Source: Candidatus Eremiobacteraceae bacterium
GTDB lineage: Bacteria; Vulcanimicrobiota; Vulcanimicrobiia; Eremiobacterales; Eremiobacteraceae
Reading direction: 5' to 3'
Length of the DNA: 64,000 nt
Assembly (NCBI GenBank): GCA_035710745.1
Contig: DASTCX010000016.1
Location: 186,001-250,000 of the forward strand
The notes beneath the pieces are model-generated. The model was not told the origin of the DNA, made no database searches, and was given only the letters and a program-made list of their open reading frames with translations. How positions within the stretch are numbered: position 1 is the first letter of the stretch; each line of letters begins with the position of its first letter. Positions 1,545 to 59,735 of the stretch are shown piece after piece. Position numbers and translations under genes: made by a program.

Positions 1545-2035
1545 AACGCCAGGAGGGTATGTAGCGGTCGAGCTTCAGCTCGACCGCCGCGGCCTATGCA
1601 AGAAGGGGAGCGGTCGAGATTCATCTCGACCGCCGCGGCTTATGCAAGAAGGGGAGCGGTCGAGATTCATCTCGACCGCCGCGGCCTTTCTAAGCGGCGG
1701 GTAAGCGCAGTCCGACTAGCGAAACCGCCCTCGAGATTATGTTCCTTCATCTTATCATCGTCGCCGCGCTCCTATCGAACGGTTCGCACTGCGGCCGAGT
1801 CGCGGGAAGCCACGCGGCGCTCGTCTACCGGATCCCAGCCGACGCTCAGGCGTCGCGCTTGCCCACGCACGCGCGGGCGACGCGGCCCTCTGCCCACCGA
1901 ACCTCGATTGACGAGACCCTCGCGACGCCCCGGCATCGCTTTAGCCTCACGACGCAACTCCGGCGCTGAGACGCGGTTTCGGCCCGCAAAGGCCGCCGCT
2001 TCTGTCACTCATCTCAGCCGGAGGTCGATACCCCA
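1545..2035. other. Intergenic region between hpf and secA
   Basis: The first 150 bases hold three tandem copies of the palindromic repeat (listed separately). In 1702-2010 I see no credible gene: frames on both strands have biased Arg/Ser composition and no start with a Shine-Dalgarno. The last 16 bases before secA contain its ribosome binding site (GGAGG at 2020-2024, 11 bases before GTG 2036). A TTGACG at 1908-1913 could be a -35 box, but no good -10 sits at the right distance. Confidence 0.6.
1564..1701 (+). repeat. Three tandem 46-bp units, each with a palindromic hairpin
   Basis: Hairpins lie at 1564-1587, 1610-1633 and 1656-1679, exactly 46 bp apart. Cores are GGTCGAGCTTCAGCTCGACC in the first and GGTCGAGATTCATCTCGACC in the second and third. 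Each is followed by CGCGGC and, for the first two, by TATGCAAGAAGGGGA. The stem differs between copy 1 and copies 2-3 by a compensating change (CT/AG against AT/AT), so the hairpin is preserved. These belong to the REP-like family found across the window. Confidence 0.9.
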
Positions 2036-14530: not shown

Positions 14531-15424
14531 ATGCCAAGGGTTTCGGTGATCGTCGTCAGCTACAATGCCGCCGATCAGCTCGAGTCGTGCCTGCGTTCGC
14601 TGGCGGCACTGCCGGAAGTGCGGCGAGACGCGTCGTTCGCCCAGGTGATCGTGTCGGACAACGGCTCGGCCGACGACAGCGTCGCGCTCGCCAAGCTGGC
14701 GTTCCCCGGAGTCGAGGTCATCGAGAACAAGGCGAATCTCGGCTTTGCGAAGGGCTGCAACGTCGGCGCGCGTTTTGCGAAGGCGCCGCTGCTGTTCTTC
14801 TTCAATCCCGATGCGGTCGCTCATCGGGCGCTGCTCGAAAACGCCGTCGCATACTTCGACGCACATCCCGACGTGGCGATGGCCGGCGCCAAGCTGCTCG
14901 ATGAGGACGGTTCCGTAGCCGAGTCGTGCGGCGAGTTCGACACGTGGTGGCAGGCGTTCTTGCGAAGCTCCGCGTGGGGCGACCTGCCGATCTTTCGCAA
15001 GCAGGCCAACGGCTACAAGCTCCGACGGTGGGACTATTCGACCGAACGCGACGTTGATCTCGTCGTCGGCGCGGCGATGTTCATCCGGCGCGACGTGTTC
15101 GAACAGTTGGGCGGGTTCGACGAGCGTTTCTTCCTCTATCATGAGGAGATCGACTTCGCGCATCGTCTCCGCGACGCAGGCAAGCGCGTCGTCTTCCTGC
15201 CGCAGTGCGTCGTCACGCACCTGAGCGAGCAAGGCGGTTCGCGCAAGACGTGGGGCAAGACCGGCGTGCTCAATTGGCGTCAGCGCAGCCGCCGGTTGTA
15301 TTGGATCAAGCGCCACGGCAGGCTGTGGTACTGGTCGCTCAGCGCAGCGCTGGCGGGGAGATACTTGTTGTTCGTCGCAATCGTCGCCGGAGTGGTCGTG
15401 TGGATACGAAGCGTTCTGCATTAG
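14531..15424 (+). CDS. Glycosyltransferase family 2 (rhamnosyltransferase-like)
   Basis: 297 residues. The GT-A fold begins with VSVIVVSYNAADQLESCLRSL, continues with VSDNGSADDS, the metal-binding region FFNPDA, and the acceptor-side GGFDERFFLYHEEIDFAHRL motif typical of rhamnosyl and related transferases of cell-surface glycans. A single membrane helix is predicted at the C-terminus (about residues 275-293). The enzyme moves a sugar from a nucleotide donor to a growing glycan on the cytoplasmic face. Its 3' end overlaps the start of the uracil-DNA glycosylase gene. Confidence 0.88.
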   Translation: MPRVSVIVVSYNAADQLESCLRSLAALPEVRRDASFAQVIVSDNGSADDSVALAKLAFPGVEVIENKANLGFAKGCNVGARFAKAPLLFFFNPDAVAHRALLENAVAYFDAHPDVAMAGAKLLDEDGSVAESCGEFDTWWQAFLRSSAWGDLPIFRKQANGYKLRRWDYSTERDVDLVVGAAMFIRRDVFEQLGGFDERFFLYHEEIDFAHRLRDAGKRVVFLPQCVVTHLSEQGGSRKTWGKTGVLNWRQRSRRLYWIKRHGRLWYWSLSAALAGRYLLFVAIVAGVVVWIRSVLH

Positions 15425-16089
15425 CGACCTTGCACGCACAAGCGGATGCGTGCCGCCGCTGCGCGATCGCGACGACGCGCGATAAGATCGTCTGCGGCGT
15501 CGGCGATCCCGATAGCCCGCTCATGATCGTCGGCGAAGGTCCGGGCGAGAACGAAGACCGCAAAGGAGAGCCTTTCGTCGGACGCGCCGGCGAGCTGTTG
15601 ACGAAGATGCTCGCCGCGATCGGTCTGCGCCGCGAGGACGTCTTCATCACGAACACGATAAAGTGCCGCGCCTCCACGGAAGAGAACGGCCGGGTTTACA
15701 ATCGCGCGCCGATGCAGGAAGAGATCGCCAACTGCCGCGAGTTCCTCGATCGCGAGATCGCGATCGTCAAGCCACGGGTCATCCTTGCCGTCGGCGCTCC
15801 CGCAGCGAAATCGTTCCTCGGGGCCGGCTTCAGCATCACCCGTCAGCGCGGCATCTGGTACGCCGGGCCCGCCGGCACCGATCTCATCGTCACGTTCCAT
15901 CCGGCGTATATCTTGCGGCTGACGGGCGGCCAGATCGACGCCGTGAAGCGACTTGTATGGAACGATTTGCAGGCAGTGCGGCGCAAGCTCGACGAATTGA
16001 AACAGGCCGACGATGAACGAGGCGAGGCCGGCGCCGGTCGAGCTGAAGCTCGACCGCTACAAGAGGAACCCGAGCTCAAGCTTTTTTGA
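15400..16089 (+). CDS. Type-4 uracil-DNA glycosylase (iron-sulfur)
   Basis: 229 residues from GTG 15400, with GGAG upstream inside the preceding gene. Family-4 marks are present: ADACRRCAIA and later Cys residues (KCRAS, ANCREF) as 4Fe-4S ligands, the GEGPGENEDRKGEPFVGRAG active-site region and the VTFHPAYILR motif. It removes uracil from DNA. The extreme C-terminus reads GRAEARPL because a copy of the palindromic REP-like repeat (16035-16056) lies in frame inside the gene. That tail is probably dispensable. Confidence 0.92.
   Translation: MDTKRSALATLHAQADACRRCAIATTRDKIVCGVGDPDSPLMIVGEGPGENEDRKGEPFVGRAGELLTKMLAAIGLRREDVFITNTIKCRASTEENGRVYNRAPMQEEIANCREFLDREIAIVKPRVILAVGAPAAKSFLGAGFSITRQRGIWYAGPAGTDLIVTFHPAYILRLTGGQIDAVKRLVWNDLQAVRRKLDELKQADDERGEAGAGRAEARPLQEEPELKLF
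16035..16056 (-). repeat. REP-like hairpin inside the uracil-DNA glycosylase gene
   Basis: Core GGTCGAGCTGAAGCTCGACC (16036-16055), flanked by C and G. It is translated in frame as part of the protein's C-terminal tail. The flanking CTAC on the right marks the minus-strand orientation of the element. Confidence 0.85.
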
Positions 16090-20632: not shown

Positions 20633-20651
20633 CGACCTCGGGAGGACCGCG

Positions 20652-20676
20652 GCGGTCGACCGTAAAGGTCGGCCGC
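20652..20676 (-). repeat. REP-like hairpin (GTCGACC variant)
   Basis: GCGGTCGACC, loop GTAAA, GGTCGGCCGC. The arms pair with one mismatch. It lies between the ABC permease stop and the first SDR gene, flanked by CCGCG on the left and TCC on the right, as in the other minus-oriented copies. Confidence 0.75.
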
Positions 20677-20711
20677 TCCATCGCCCTCACGACATAAGGA
20701 GACAGACACAC

Positions 20712-21446
20712 GTGTTGAGCGAACGCGTCGCCATCGTCACGGGCGGCACACGCGGCATCGGCGCCGCGATCACCGCCGACCTCGCCTCGCGCGGCTGCCA
20801 CGTCGCCGCCGGCTACAGCAAGGACCGCGAGAAAGCGGACGAGCTGCGGAAAAACCTTCCCGACCATTCGGTCTCGATCCATCAGGGCCGCGTCGATGAT
20901 CCGGCGTCGTGCGAGCGCGTCGTCAAAGAGGTCCTGCGCGATTTCGGCCGCATCGACTACCTCGTCAACAACGCCGGCATCACGATAGATAAAACCGTGC
21001 GGAAGATGACGCCCGACGAGTGGCATCAAGTTCTCCAAGTGAATCTCTCGGGTGCTTTCCATATGACCAAAGCGGTGCTCGAGCACATGCTCGAGCGGGG
21101 ATCGGGGCGTATCGTCAACATCAGTTCCGTCATCGGCGAGACCGGCAACGTCGGTCAGGCGAACTACGCTGCGTCAAAAGCCGGATTGTTCGGCCTCACG
21201 AAGAGTCTCGCGCTCGAGATGGCGCGAAAGGGCATCACCGTGAACTGCGTCGCGCCGGGCTTCATCGAGACCGAGATGGTCGGCGCCATGCCGAAAGCCG
21301 TGCTCGATACAGTCATCGAACGGATCCCATTACGCCGGCTCGGCCGGCCGGAAGAGGTCGCGCGCGTCGTGCGATTCTTGCTCGAAGACGAGGCCGGCTA
21401 CATCACCGGCGCGATCTACAGCGTCAACGGCGGATTGGAGATGTAG
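20712..21446 (+). CDS. SDR-family reductase, probably acetoacetyl-CoA reductase (PhaB/FabG)
   Basis: 244 residues from GTG 20712 with GGAGA nine bases upstream. The Rossmann motif TGGTRGIGAAI, the NNAGITID segment, and the catalytic Ser and YxxxK (NYAASKAGLFG) are intact. The C-terminal GAIYSVNGGLEM is the classic FabG/PhaB end. Because phaC follows, the likely job is NADPH-dependent reduction of acetoacetyl-CoA to (R)-3-hydroxybutyryl-CoA for PHA synthesis, though a fatty-acid role cannot be excluded. Confidence 0.88.
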   Translation: MLSERVAIVTGGTRGIGAAITADLASRGCHVAAGYSKDREKADELRKNLPDHSVSIHQGRVDDPASCERVVKEVLRDFGRIDYLVNNAGITIDKTVRKMTPDEWHQVLQVNLSGAFHMTKAVLEHMLERGSGRIVNISSVIGETGNVGQANYAASKAGLFGLTKSLALEMARKGITVNCVAPGFIETEMVGAMPKAVLDTVIERIPLRRLGRPEEVARVVRFLLEDEAGYITGAIYSVNGGLEM

Positions 21447-21497
21447 CGGTCGAGATTTATCTCGACCGCCGTCGCCGGTCGAGCTAAAGCTCGACCG
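21446..21497. repeat. Two REP-like hairpins back to back
   Basis: First copy at 21446-21469 with core GGTCGAGATTTATCTCGACC; second at 21476-21497 with core GGTCGAGCTAAAGCTCGACC. They are in opposite orientation judging from the outer flanks (GTAGCGG on the left, CCGCTAC on the right), together forming a 60-bp imperfect palindrome. The first overlaps the last base of the SDR stop codon. Confidence 0.9.
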
Positions 21498-24939: not shown

Positions 24940-26250
24940 ATGACGCGGCCGATGCCGAGCATGGATGAGATCACGGCGCTTGCGAAGCGCCGCGGTTTCA
25001 TATTCCAGTCGAGCGAGATCTACGGCGGCGTCAACGGCGTGTGGGACTACGGACCGCTCGGTGTCGAGCTCAAGCGAAACGTCCGCGAGGCCTGGTGGCG
25101 CGACAACGTGTCGCTGCGCGACGACGTCGTCGGCGTCGACACGGCGATCATCATGCACACGGACGTCTGGCGCGCGTCGGGGCATCTCGAGAACTTCCAC
25201 GACCAGATGGTCGACTGCAAGACGTGCAAGAAACGCTGGCGCGCCGACCATCTCACGAGCGACCGTTGCCCGGCTTGCGGCAATGCGACGCTCACCGAGC
25301 CGCGCGACTTCAACATGATGTTCAAGACGTTCGTCGGCGCGATGGAAGACGCGTCGTCGACCGCGTATCTGCGGCCGGAGACTGCGCAAGGCATCTTCGT
25401 CGATTTCAAGCTCATCGCGCAAACCGCGCGGATGAAGCCGCCGTTCGGCATCGCGCAGATCGGCAAGGCCTTCCGCAACGAGATCACTCCCGGCAACTTC
25501 ACGTTCCGCTCGCGCGAGTTCGAGCAGATGGAGCTCGAGTTCTTCGTTCCCCGGTCGCCCGAAGGCGAGGACCTGCGCTGGTACCGCTACTGGGTCGACG
25601 AGCGCTACGACTGGTTCATGCGGCTCGGCATGTTGCCTTCCCGGCTGCACAAGCACGAGTACGAGGGCGACGAGCTCGCGCACTACAGCAAGGCGACGAC
25701 CGATCTCGAATACGACTGGCCGTTCGGCACCTCTGAACTCGAGGGGATCGCGCATCGCGGCGTCTACGATCTGACGCAGCACGTCGAGGCGAGCGGCAAA
25801 GATCTCGCGTTCTTCGACGAAGAGTCGAAGGAGAAGTATCTGCCGACCGTCATCGAGCCCTCGCTCGGCGTCGATCGCGCTCTGCTCGCGTTCTTGATCG
25901 ACGCGTACGAGAAAGAAGCCGATCGCACGGTGTTGCGTTTCCATCCGCGTCTAGCTCCGTACAAAGTCGCGGTGTTCCCGCTCGTGCGCAACAAGCCGGA
26001 TATCGTCGAGGTCGCGACGCGGATCGAGAAATCGCTGCGTCCGTCGTTCCGCACGACGCTCGACGACTCGGGCAACGTCGGCAAGCGCTACTACAGACAG
26101 GACGAGATCGGCACGCCGTACTGCGTCACCGTCGATTATGAATCGCTCGATAAGCAAGACGTAACGGTCCGCGACCGTGACACCAAAGAGCAGGTGCGCG
26201 TGTCGATCGACAAACTCGAAGTCTACCTGCGCGAACGGTTACAACTGTAG
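24940..26250 (+). CDS. glyQS: Glycyl-tRNA synthetase, homodimeric class II type
   Basis: 436 residues in one chain, so this is the alpha2 enzyme and not the separate alpha and beta subunits of many bacteria. Class II motifs: SEIYGGVNGVWDYGPLGVEL (motif 1 region), FRNEITPGNFTFRSREFEQM (motif 2) and PSLGVDRALLAFL (motif 3). A zinc-binding knuckle is visible in DCKTCKKRW and CPACGN. The C-terminal anticodon-binding domain spans about residues 330-436. It charges tRNA-Gly with glycine. Confidence 0.97.
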   Translation: MTRPMPSMDEITALAKRRGFIFQSSEIYGGVNGVWDYGPLGVELKRNVREAWWRDNVSLRDDVVGVDTAIIMHTDVWRASGHLENFHDQMVDCKTCKKRWRADHLTSDRCPACGNATLTEPRDFNMMFKTFVGAMEDASSTAYLRPETAQGIFVDFKLIAQTARMKPPFGIAQIGKAFRNEITPGNFTFRSREFEQMELEFFVPRSPEGEDLRWYRYWVDERYDWFMRLGMLPSRLHKHEYEGDELAHYSKATTDLEYDWPFGTSELEGIAHRGVYDLTQHVEASGKDLAFFDEESKEKYLPTVIEPSLGVDRALLAFLIDAYEKEADRTVLRFHPRLAPYKVAVFPLVRNKPDIVEVATRIEKSLRPSFRTTLDDSGNVGKRYYRQDEIGTPYCVTVDYESLDKQDVTVRDRDTKEQVRVSIDKLEVYLRERLQL

Positions 26251-26253
26251 TAG

Positions 26254-26270
26254 GCCGAGCGAAGCTCGGC
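26254..26270. repeat. Short hairpin repeat, second family
   Basis: GCCGAGCGAAGCTCGGC immediately after the glyQS stop codon and seven bases before the end of the convergent Lrp gene. Loop GAA instead of GTA. Confidence 0.8.
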
Positions 26271-30277: not shown

Positions 30278-30316
30278 CGGTCGAGATTCATCTCGACCGG
30301 CCGAGCGTAGCTCGGC
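30278..30316. repeat. REP-like hairpin fused to a second-family hairpin
   Basis: Copy of the first family at 30278-30299 (core GGTCGAGATTCATCTCGACC) directly abutting GCCGAGCGTAGCTCGGC at 30300-30316. They fill the gap between ppdK and dgt and may act as transcription attenuators. Confidence 0.9.
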
Positions 30317-48720: not shown

Positions 48721-48744
48721 GCGGTCGAGATTTATCTCGACCGC
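48721..48744 (+). repeat. REP-like hairpin
   Basis: Core GGTCGAGATTTATCTCGACC within GC...GC flanks, preceded by GGGA and followed by CGCGGTC. It lies between the CDF gene and the lipoprotein gene. Confidence 0.88.
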
Positions 48745-49542: not shown

Positions 49543-49566
49543 GCGGTCGAGCTGAAGCTCGACCGC
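49543..49566 (-). repeat. REP-like hairpin
   Basis: Core GGTCGAGCTGAAGCTCGACC, flanked by CCGCGGC on the left and TAC on the right. The same core sequence occurs inside the uracil-DNA glycosylase gene. Confidence 0.88.
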
Positions 49567-51323: not shown

Positions 51324-52286
51324 ATGTTCGTCGCAAGAACGATTGCGCTCATCGTCGGTTTCACGATCGCGGTCGTCGTAGCTGCAAGGCCGGCTCCGGT
51401 CGACCTTAATGGTCGACCGCTCCGTGCCAACATCGCAAGAATCATCGCGACGATCGATGGTATGAAATCGTCCGCGCCGCTGGCGACCGCAACGCTCTCG
51501 CCGGACGAGATCTATTCTAAGTCCGTCCACGAGATGCGATCACTCGCACACACCGGCAACCCGCCGTATCTCGTCTTCGACTTGCATCTCGTCAGCCACA
51601 ACCTTCATTGGTATCCGCAGACGGATGACGGGCTGACGGATTGGGAAGTGAGGCTCGTCCACGCGAACGAGACCGCGGACTATCGCGTCTGGTATCGATC
51701 GAAGGACGAGCGAGCGCTCGTCCAAGACGCTGCGACGCACGCGGCTTACGAAGGCGAGTCGCCTTTCGCGCCGGAGACGACCGACTTCTCGGACATGACG
51801 GGCACGAAGTCGACACCACTGCCATCGCCCTCACCTGCCGCGGGCAAGGCAAGCGACGCGCCGGCCCAAGTCATCGGCGCGATCACCGTCAACGGAAGCC
51901 AGCATTACGCGATCGATCTCGTCGGCATGGAACAGCGTGACGGGAGGCAGACGTATCACCTCCATCTGCGTGCGTTCCGTGACGCGATGGATTATCCGCT
52001 GACGGATCTATGGGTCGACTCAAGCGACTATCGGATCGTCGGCGCGCACGGCGAGGTGACCGTGCGAGCGGTCGCTGCGCTCTTAGGCGTCGGCGTCACC
52101 GCGGACTTCGCGCAGGCTGATAAGTACTGGCTCGTCTCGACGATGGATGTGTCGCTCAAGGGCTACATCGCATTCTGGCATGCGAATACGGAGACGTCGA
52201 TGACGGCATCGGTCGTGTCGATCCCGGCGACGTTGCCCGAGAGCTACTTCAAGAACGCCACGACGCCGGCGTCGGCGCATCGTTAG
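51324..52286 (+). CDS. Predicted secreted protein, unknown function, with an embedded repeat
   Basis: 320 residues from ATG 51324 with GGGAG upstream. A signal-like helix (TIALIVGFTIAVVVAA) is followed immediately by RPAPVDLNGRPLRAN, encoded by an in-frame copy of the REP-like palindrome (51397-51419). The mature domain has LHLVSHNLHWYPQTDDGL and long beta strands, consistent with a periplasmic LolA-like or outer-membrane carrier fold, but I recognise no family with confidence. It lies between cysC and sat. Confidence 0.7.
   Translation: MFVARTIALIVGFTIAVVVAARPAPVDLNGRPLRANIARIIATIDGMKSSAPLATATLSPDEIYSKSVHEMRSLAHTGNPPYLVFDLHLVSHNLHWYPQTDDGLTDWEVRLVHANETADYRVWYRSKDERALVQDAATHAAYEGESPFAPETTDFSDMTGTKSTPLPSPSPAAGKASDAPAQVIGAITVNGSQHYAIDLVGMEQRDGRQTYHLHLRAFRDAMDYPLTDLWVDSSDYRIVGAHGEVTVRAVAALLGVGVTADFAQADKYWLVSTMDVSLKGYIAFWHANTETSMTASVVSIPATLPESYFKNATTPASAHR
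51397..51419 (-). repeat. REP-like hairpin inside the 51324 gene
   Basis: CGGTCGACC, loop TTAAT, GGTCGACCG. It encodes PVDLNGRP just after the signal helix, where extra residues are tolerated. Confidence 0.88.
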
Positions 52287-52298
52287 CGGACGGCCGCG

Positions 52299-52322
52299 GC
52301 GGTCGAGATAAATCTCGACCGC
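52299..52322 (-). repeat. REP-like hairpin
   Basis: Core GGTCGAGATAAATCTCGACC between convergent genes, flanked by CCGCG on the left and TCC on the right. It could serve as a bidirectional terminator. Confidence 0.88.
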
Positions 52323-59648: not shown

Positions 59649-59735
59649 GTGGTATGCCGAGCTTCGCTCGGAAACTGCCGAGCTTCGCTCGGCATACCAC
59701 GTCAGATAAACATCAGACAAACATCAGACAAACAT
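59649..59735. repeat. Large inverted repeat with two embedded hairpins, then 11-bp tandem repeats
   Basis: GTGGTATGCCGAGC (59649-59662) pairs with GCTCGGCATACCAC (59687-59700). Inside lie two copies of the GCCGAGC-TTC-GCTCGG element. Directly after come CAGATAAACAT and two copies of CAGACAAACAT (59703-59735). The block separates two convergent genes, a place for a bidirectional terminator. Confidence 0.88.

Follow-up and report, generated by a model that had tools for sequence, protein, structure and literature searches.

A GTAG-headed REP palindrome read in frame in the C-terminal linker of a family-4 uracil-DNA glycosylase from Candidatus Eremiobacterota

The window analyzed here is a 64,000-nt stretch of DNA whose related contigs belong to Candidatus Eremiobacterota. 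It carries a family-4 uracil-DNA glycosylase (UDG) gene on the + strand at 15400..16089 (PF03167, E 6.7e-38; TIGR00758 UDG_fam4, 165.9 bits against a cut-off of 125.3). The gene starts at a GTG at 15400 or a TTG at 15430 and stops at the TGA at 16087-16089, and the start of rlmN (TIGR00048) adjoins or slightly overlaps it. The sequence CGGTCGAGCTGAAGCTCGACCG at 16035-16056 is a perfect palindrome. In the frame of ORF 15400-16089 it is read as GGT CGA GCT GAA GCT CGA CCG CTA, giving GRAEARPL (residues 213-220 of 229), with GRAEARP encoded by the palindrome itself and L by the following codon. The element is oriented on the minus strand, where a GTAG head (16057..16060; CTAC on the + strand, within CGCTACA) lies 5' of the hairpin. 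A first-pass annotation of the window had placed these codons in the C-terminal tail of the UDG, as the ORF frame confirms, and had described the core as identical to an intergenic copy at 49543; the identity covers 20 bases at 49545-49564 and runs on through CGCTACA.

The match of the UDG to solved family-4 relatives stops at residues 172-202, and residues 211-224 have pLDDT values below 50 in an AlphaFold model; the segment carrying the palindrome is therefore predicted to be a flexible, disordered tail or linker. Past the insertion, the protein ends in QEEPELKLF (16060..16086, + strand), which corresponds to QEPELKLF in the sister species of the same genus (G001; genus g1, with the genome under study denoted G000). 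The terminal LF is kept in all nine aligned UDGs, and the palindrome is located in the linker preceding this LF-type motif. The EQxxLF-type C-terminal motif of the UDG homologues (window 16072-16086; loci L019-L025) appears, from its sequence, to resemble bacterial sliding-clamp binding motifs; a literature search for a clamp-binding motif of family-4 UDGs found none.

We surveyed repeats related to the palindrome in 1.80 of the 2.97 Mb of the genome. Three related types were identified, A (GTCGAGCTNNAGCTCGAC, the type of the UDG copy), B (GTCGAGATNNATCTCGAC) and C (GGTCGACCN4-6GGTCGACC), with 426 copies in total, 371 of which were exact. The palindromes are 22-24 bp long, within the range of short (20-40 bp), high-copy-number REPs, and the GTAG or GGAG foot of such elements stands at a constant point ahead of the hairpin: GTAG (103) or GGAG (14) in type A, GGAG (164) in type B and GTAG in the UDG copy. 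The type A consensus, based on 111 oriented copies, is TGTAGCGGTCGAGCTTTAGCTCGACCG. The UDG copy is a lone REP with a ragged tail and lacks the two inverted REPs that make up the single mobile unit of a REPIN.

Isolated hairpins do occur in G+C-rich coding DNA, and the palindrome might in principle have arisen by chance from coding sequence. However, its 20-base core was found at 223 places genome-wide with at most one mismatch, compared with 2 for a reversed-pattern control. Within the window, where a palindromic place may be counted once per strand, 14 matches with at most three mismatches were obtained, compared with an expectation of 0.04 from dinucleotide shuffles. Because the UDG palindrome, head included, exactly matches a repeat with over 200 copies, we reject a chance origin on the basis of the shuffles, copy number and head, and regard it as vanishingly improbable.

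The genome contains two Y1 transposase (RAYT, PF01797) genes, on contigs C25 and C31, and both are flanked by cognate REPs. The C25 gene has type A REPs on both sides (two upstream and two downstream) in an inverted arrangement, plus one type B REP downstream, and the C31 gene is surrounded by six type B REPs, also in an inverted arrangement. A RAYT gene lying between REPs is the standard arrangement of REP/RAYT systems (PMC2817692, PMC3733652). Similarly, in the sister species and most other RAYT-bearing genomes of the family, the RAYT is bordered by hairpins of the kind belonging to the genome in question.

Several further REPs are distributed across the window. Where G000 has the intergenic type A copy whose core matches the UDG copy (49543..49566, minus strand), the sister species has type B, and a REP pair in the REPIN arrangement (21446..21497; type B on +, type A on -) corresponds to a different palindrome pair there. 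Three tandem REPs, one of type A and two of type B, occupy 1564..1679 (+) with a 46-nt period. Type B REPs are also located at 30278..30299 (+), at 48721..48744 (+, with a GGAG head) and at 52299..52322 (-), the last of these with type B at the sister's orthologous site as well. Besides the UDG copy, the window has one more in-frame REP inside a gene, a type C element at 51398..51418 (-) that is read on the + strand as PVDLNGRP in ORF 51324-52286; the 45-nt stretch holding it is an in-frame gap in the sister species. Another type C REP at 20647..20682 (-) corresponds to a clean gap in the sister. The two missing REPs (the 51398 and 20650 copies) point directly to movement or turnover since the two species separated; at any single site, however, a deletion in the sister could also account for the gap. 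ORF 51324-52286 has a weak LolA-like match, below the cut-off, and bears its REP in the N-terminal region. A further palindrome family of the same general build (GTAGTAGGCCGAGC.../GTGGTATGCCGAGC...) was observed at 26247-26270 and 59649-59700.

Most REPs are extragenic. The coding share of the stretches read was 86.5%, so that uniform placement would give about 321 genic copies among the 371 exact ones, whereas 10 were called genic and 3 more overlapped gene ends, some of these being start-codon call errors; about 96% of exact copies were intergenic. Genes were called with a simple codon-usage script, not a standard gene finder, and the genic counts, which cover the surveyed 1.80 Mb, are lower bounds. 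The apparent genic copies at C3:47394 and C36:2272 lie near predicted start codons and probably reflect wrong start calls, and one-mismatch genic matches without a head (e.g. C25:109154 and C4:74626) were taken as chance coding matches. At two gene 3' ends of this genome, C31:42091 and C4:100885 (loci L139 and L128), overlapping type A REPs supply the stop codon (QSS* and RSS*). The first-pass annotation had considered in-frame insertion to be rare, which is true per copy; however, other genes of this genome also carry such copies, and they are known in other bacteria (PMC3733652).

In-frame type A copies were found in GltX (GRAKARPLQD, C4:13333) and in a GlcF-like Fe-S protein (GRAKARPLHD, C25:25754), and these two share one orientation and frame with the UDG copy. 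Additional in-frame copies occur in Mfd (RSRSIST, C16:78252), SelB (RSRFIST, C15:13602), an RsmB-like protein (AVDLHGRP, C19:16923) whose best NCBIfam matches fall just under their cut-offs, and a small protein (AVDRKGRP, C18:10133). Stops are present in several of the six REP frames. The type A insert of GltX is the same in both species of genus g1, and other family members are without it. Another family genome, G012, carries its own GTAG palindrome in the GltX Cys-loop; this palindrome occurs at 38 places (at most two mismatches) in G012 and in none of the other genomes among the ten searched. The GlcF-like insert contains paired inverted REPs; like the type A insert of GltX, it is shared by the two g1 species, and the other family genomes are without it. 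In the sister species, this insert (L205) is enlarged by tandem duplication, seen as ARPLQDHTP repeats.

We further compared the UDG tails of related bacteria. In seven more distant Eremiobacterota UDGs (57-64% identity), the last helix is followed by a short linker and EQxxLF, without GRAEARP. Conservation of the palindrome-encoded residues in distant homologues, the result that would have told against an insertion, was thus looked for in these seven proteins and not found. Together with a REP family that has its own RAYT genes, their absence supports the proposal of the first-pass annotation that a mobile palindrome was inserted. Its expectation that relatives would simply end a few residues earlier did not hold, as the kept LF-type motif follows a variable linker. 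Most UDG tails of the same family also lack the palindrome, and their lengths vary widely; because linker length varies even without the palindrome, length alone proves nothing. The UDG copy is stop-free, in frame and absent from these orthologues, which are the features of an intragenic in-frame REP. No target-site duplication was identified at the insertion.

The position of the palindrome, between the UDG and the start of the overlapping rlmN gene and ahead of the conserved LF motif, might suggest that it was selected for its peptide or mRNA hairpin, for example to set linker length to the clamp-binding-like C-terminus or to stabilize the mRNA before rlmN. The hairpin core is indeed present in the predicted RNA fold. 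However, the regional folding energy is ordinary relative to shuffles (z -0.18), which gives no support to an unusual mRNA fold where the UDG meets rlmN. The peptide is not the same among relatives, and similar copies are found in unrelated linkers. We therefore consider a selected function in the UDG improbable.

Among close relatives, the same linker is occupied by different palindromes. The UDG linker of the sister species contains a composite of a type C and a partial A/B REP, and that of G003 (genus g3) contains its own palindrome, GCCGGACTAAAGTCCGGCATACCAC, which occurs at 54 places in G003 (at most two mismatches) and at none in the 12 other family genomes searched. No clean empty-site linker was found at close range, as both g1 species and the g3 genome bear a palindrome. 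A hairpin in the UDG tail of G002 (GCCTGCGGG...) was rejected as another REP, being single-copy except for one match with two mismatches.

In G000, G001 and G003, the head of the UDG palindrome adjoins the same flank, CAAGA(G/A)...CCxGAGCT. Aligned blocks of G000 and G001 contained 35 orthologous REP sites, of which 16 held the same type, 7 held different types, 5 were empty and 7 were degenerate. At the 7 switched sites (A to B and others), the head and both arms change together. The shared flank and the frequent type switching are consistent with a history in which a single REP entered the UDG linker of the g1 and g3 ancestor and was later overwritten by the active REP type, through conversion or re-insertion into the existing REP, so that the three present palindromes would go back to one old insertion. 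On the other hand, the g3 family is absent from g1 and the g1 family was not seen in g3, independent landings at the same short target would look alike, and the G001 copy is a composite with no clean switch. We regard overwriting as a realistic history with somewhat less than an even chance of being correct; it concerns the history of the element, not its identity.

Taken together, these observations make it very likely that the UDG palindrome is a GTAG-headed REP of about 27-35 bp from a RAYT-associated family that entered a family-4 UDG gene of an Eremiobacterota lineage in antisense orientation and without breaking the reading frame, at the disordered linker that joins the catalytic domain to the C-terminal motif. 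The HUH transposase would recognize the GTAG head and hairpin on single-stranded DNA, as in the accepted model of REP/RAYT systems. In the order of events that we infer, it would then paste the REP into new sites, and most insertions into genes would be purged as harmful. REPs that land in a flexible linker without introducing a stop or shifting the frame would persist as translated passengers with a presumably neutral peptide.

Rickettsia palindromic elements (RPEs) prefer flexible regions. As they are cited in PMC3733652, RPEs are translated in frame in unrelated genes; the REPs described here resemble them in this respect, and differ in having a RAYT partner and mostly intergenic copies. 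Di Nocera et al. (2013, PMC3733652) have already described GTAG REPs inside genes, often in repair, tRNA-synthetase and RNA-modification genes, as well as recB of two Xanthomonas species, in which distinct REPs occupy roughly one position. Our family shares with those GTAG REPs the tagged 20-40 bp palindrome, high copy number, mostly intergenic location and in-frame genic copies, whereas the phylum, the family-4 UDG host gene, the occupation of one linker across genera and the sister-species comparison are different. It also resembles REPIN and RAYT-REP systems (PMC3116915, PMC2817692) in having a RAYT with its REP type on either side, and in the paired inverted REPs at 21446-21497 and in the GlcF-like insert, although the UDG linker holds one REP and not a full REPIN.

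The UDG REP is thus a well-supported further case of a known phenomenon, with good comparative support for the conversion of RAYT-linked REPs into protein sequence in a phylum that has received little study. More unusual is that the same linker sites are occupied repeatedly and switch type, with related species carrying different palindromes at the UDG spot. One speculative and rather doubtful explanation is that linkers such as the UDG tail and the GltX Cys-loop are long-lived docking sites, occupied across species and genera and repeatedly overwritten by the type of the resident RAYT, since an existing REP would be a preferred target; if so, they would preserve, as protein sequence, a history of the RAYT populations that followed one another. 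Close species pairs with empty, same-type and switched-type sites offer a tractable system for REP movement and replacement, which are still poorly understood.
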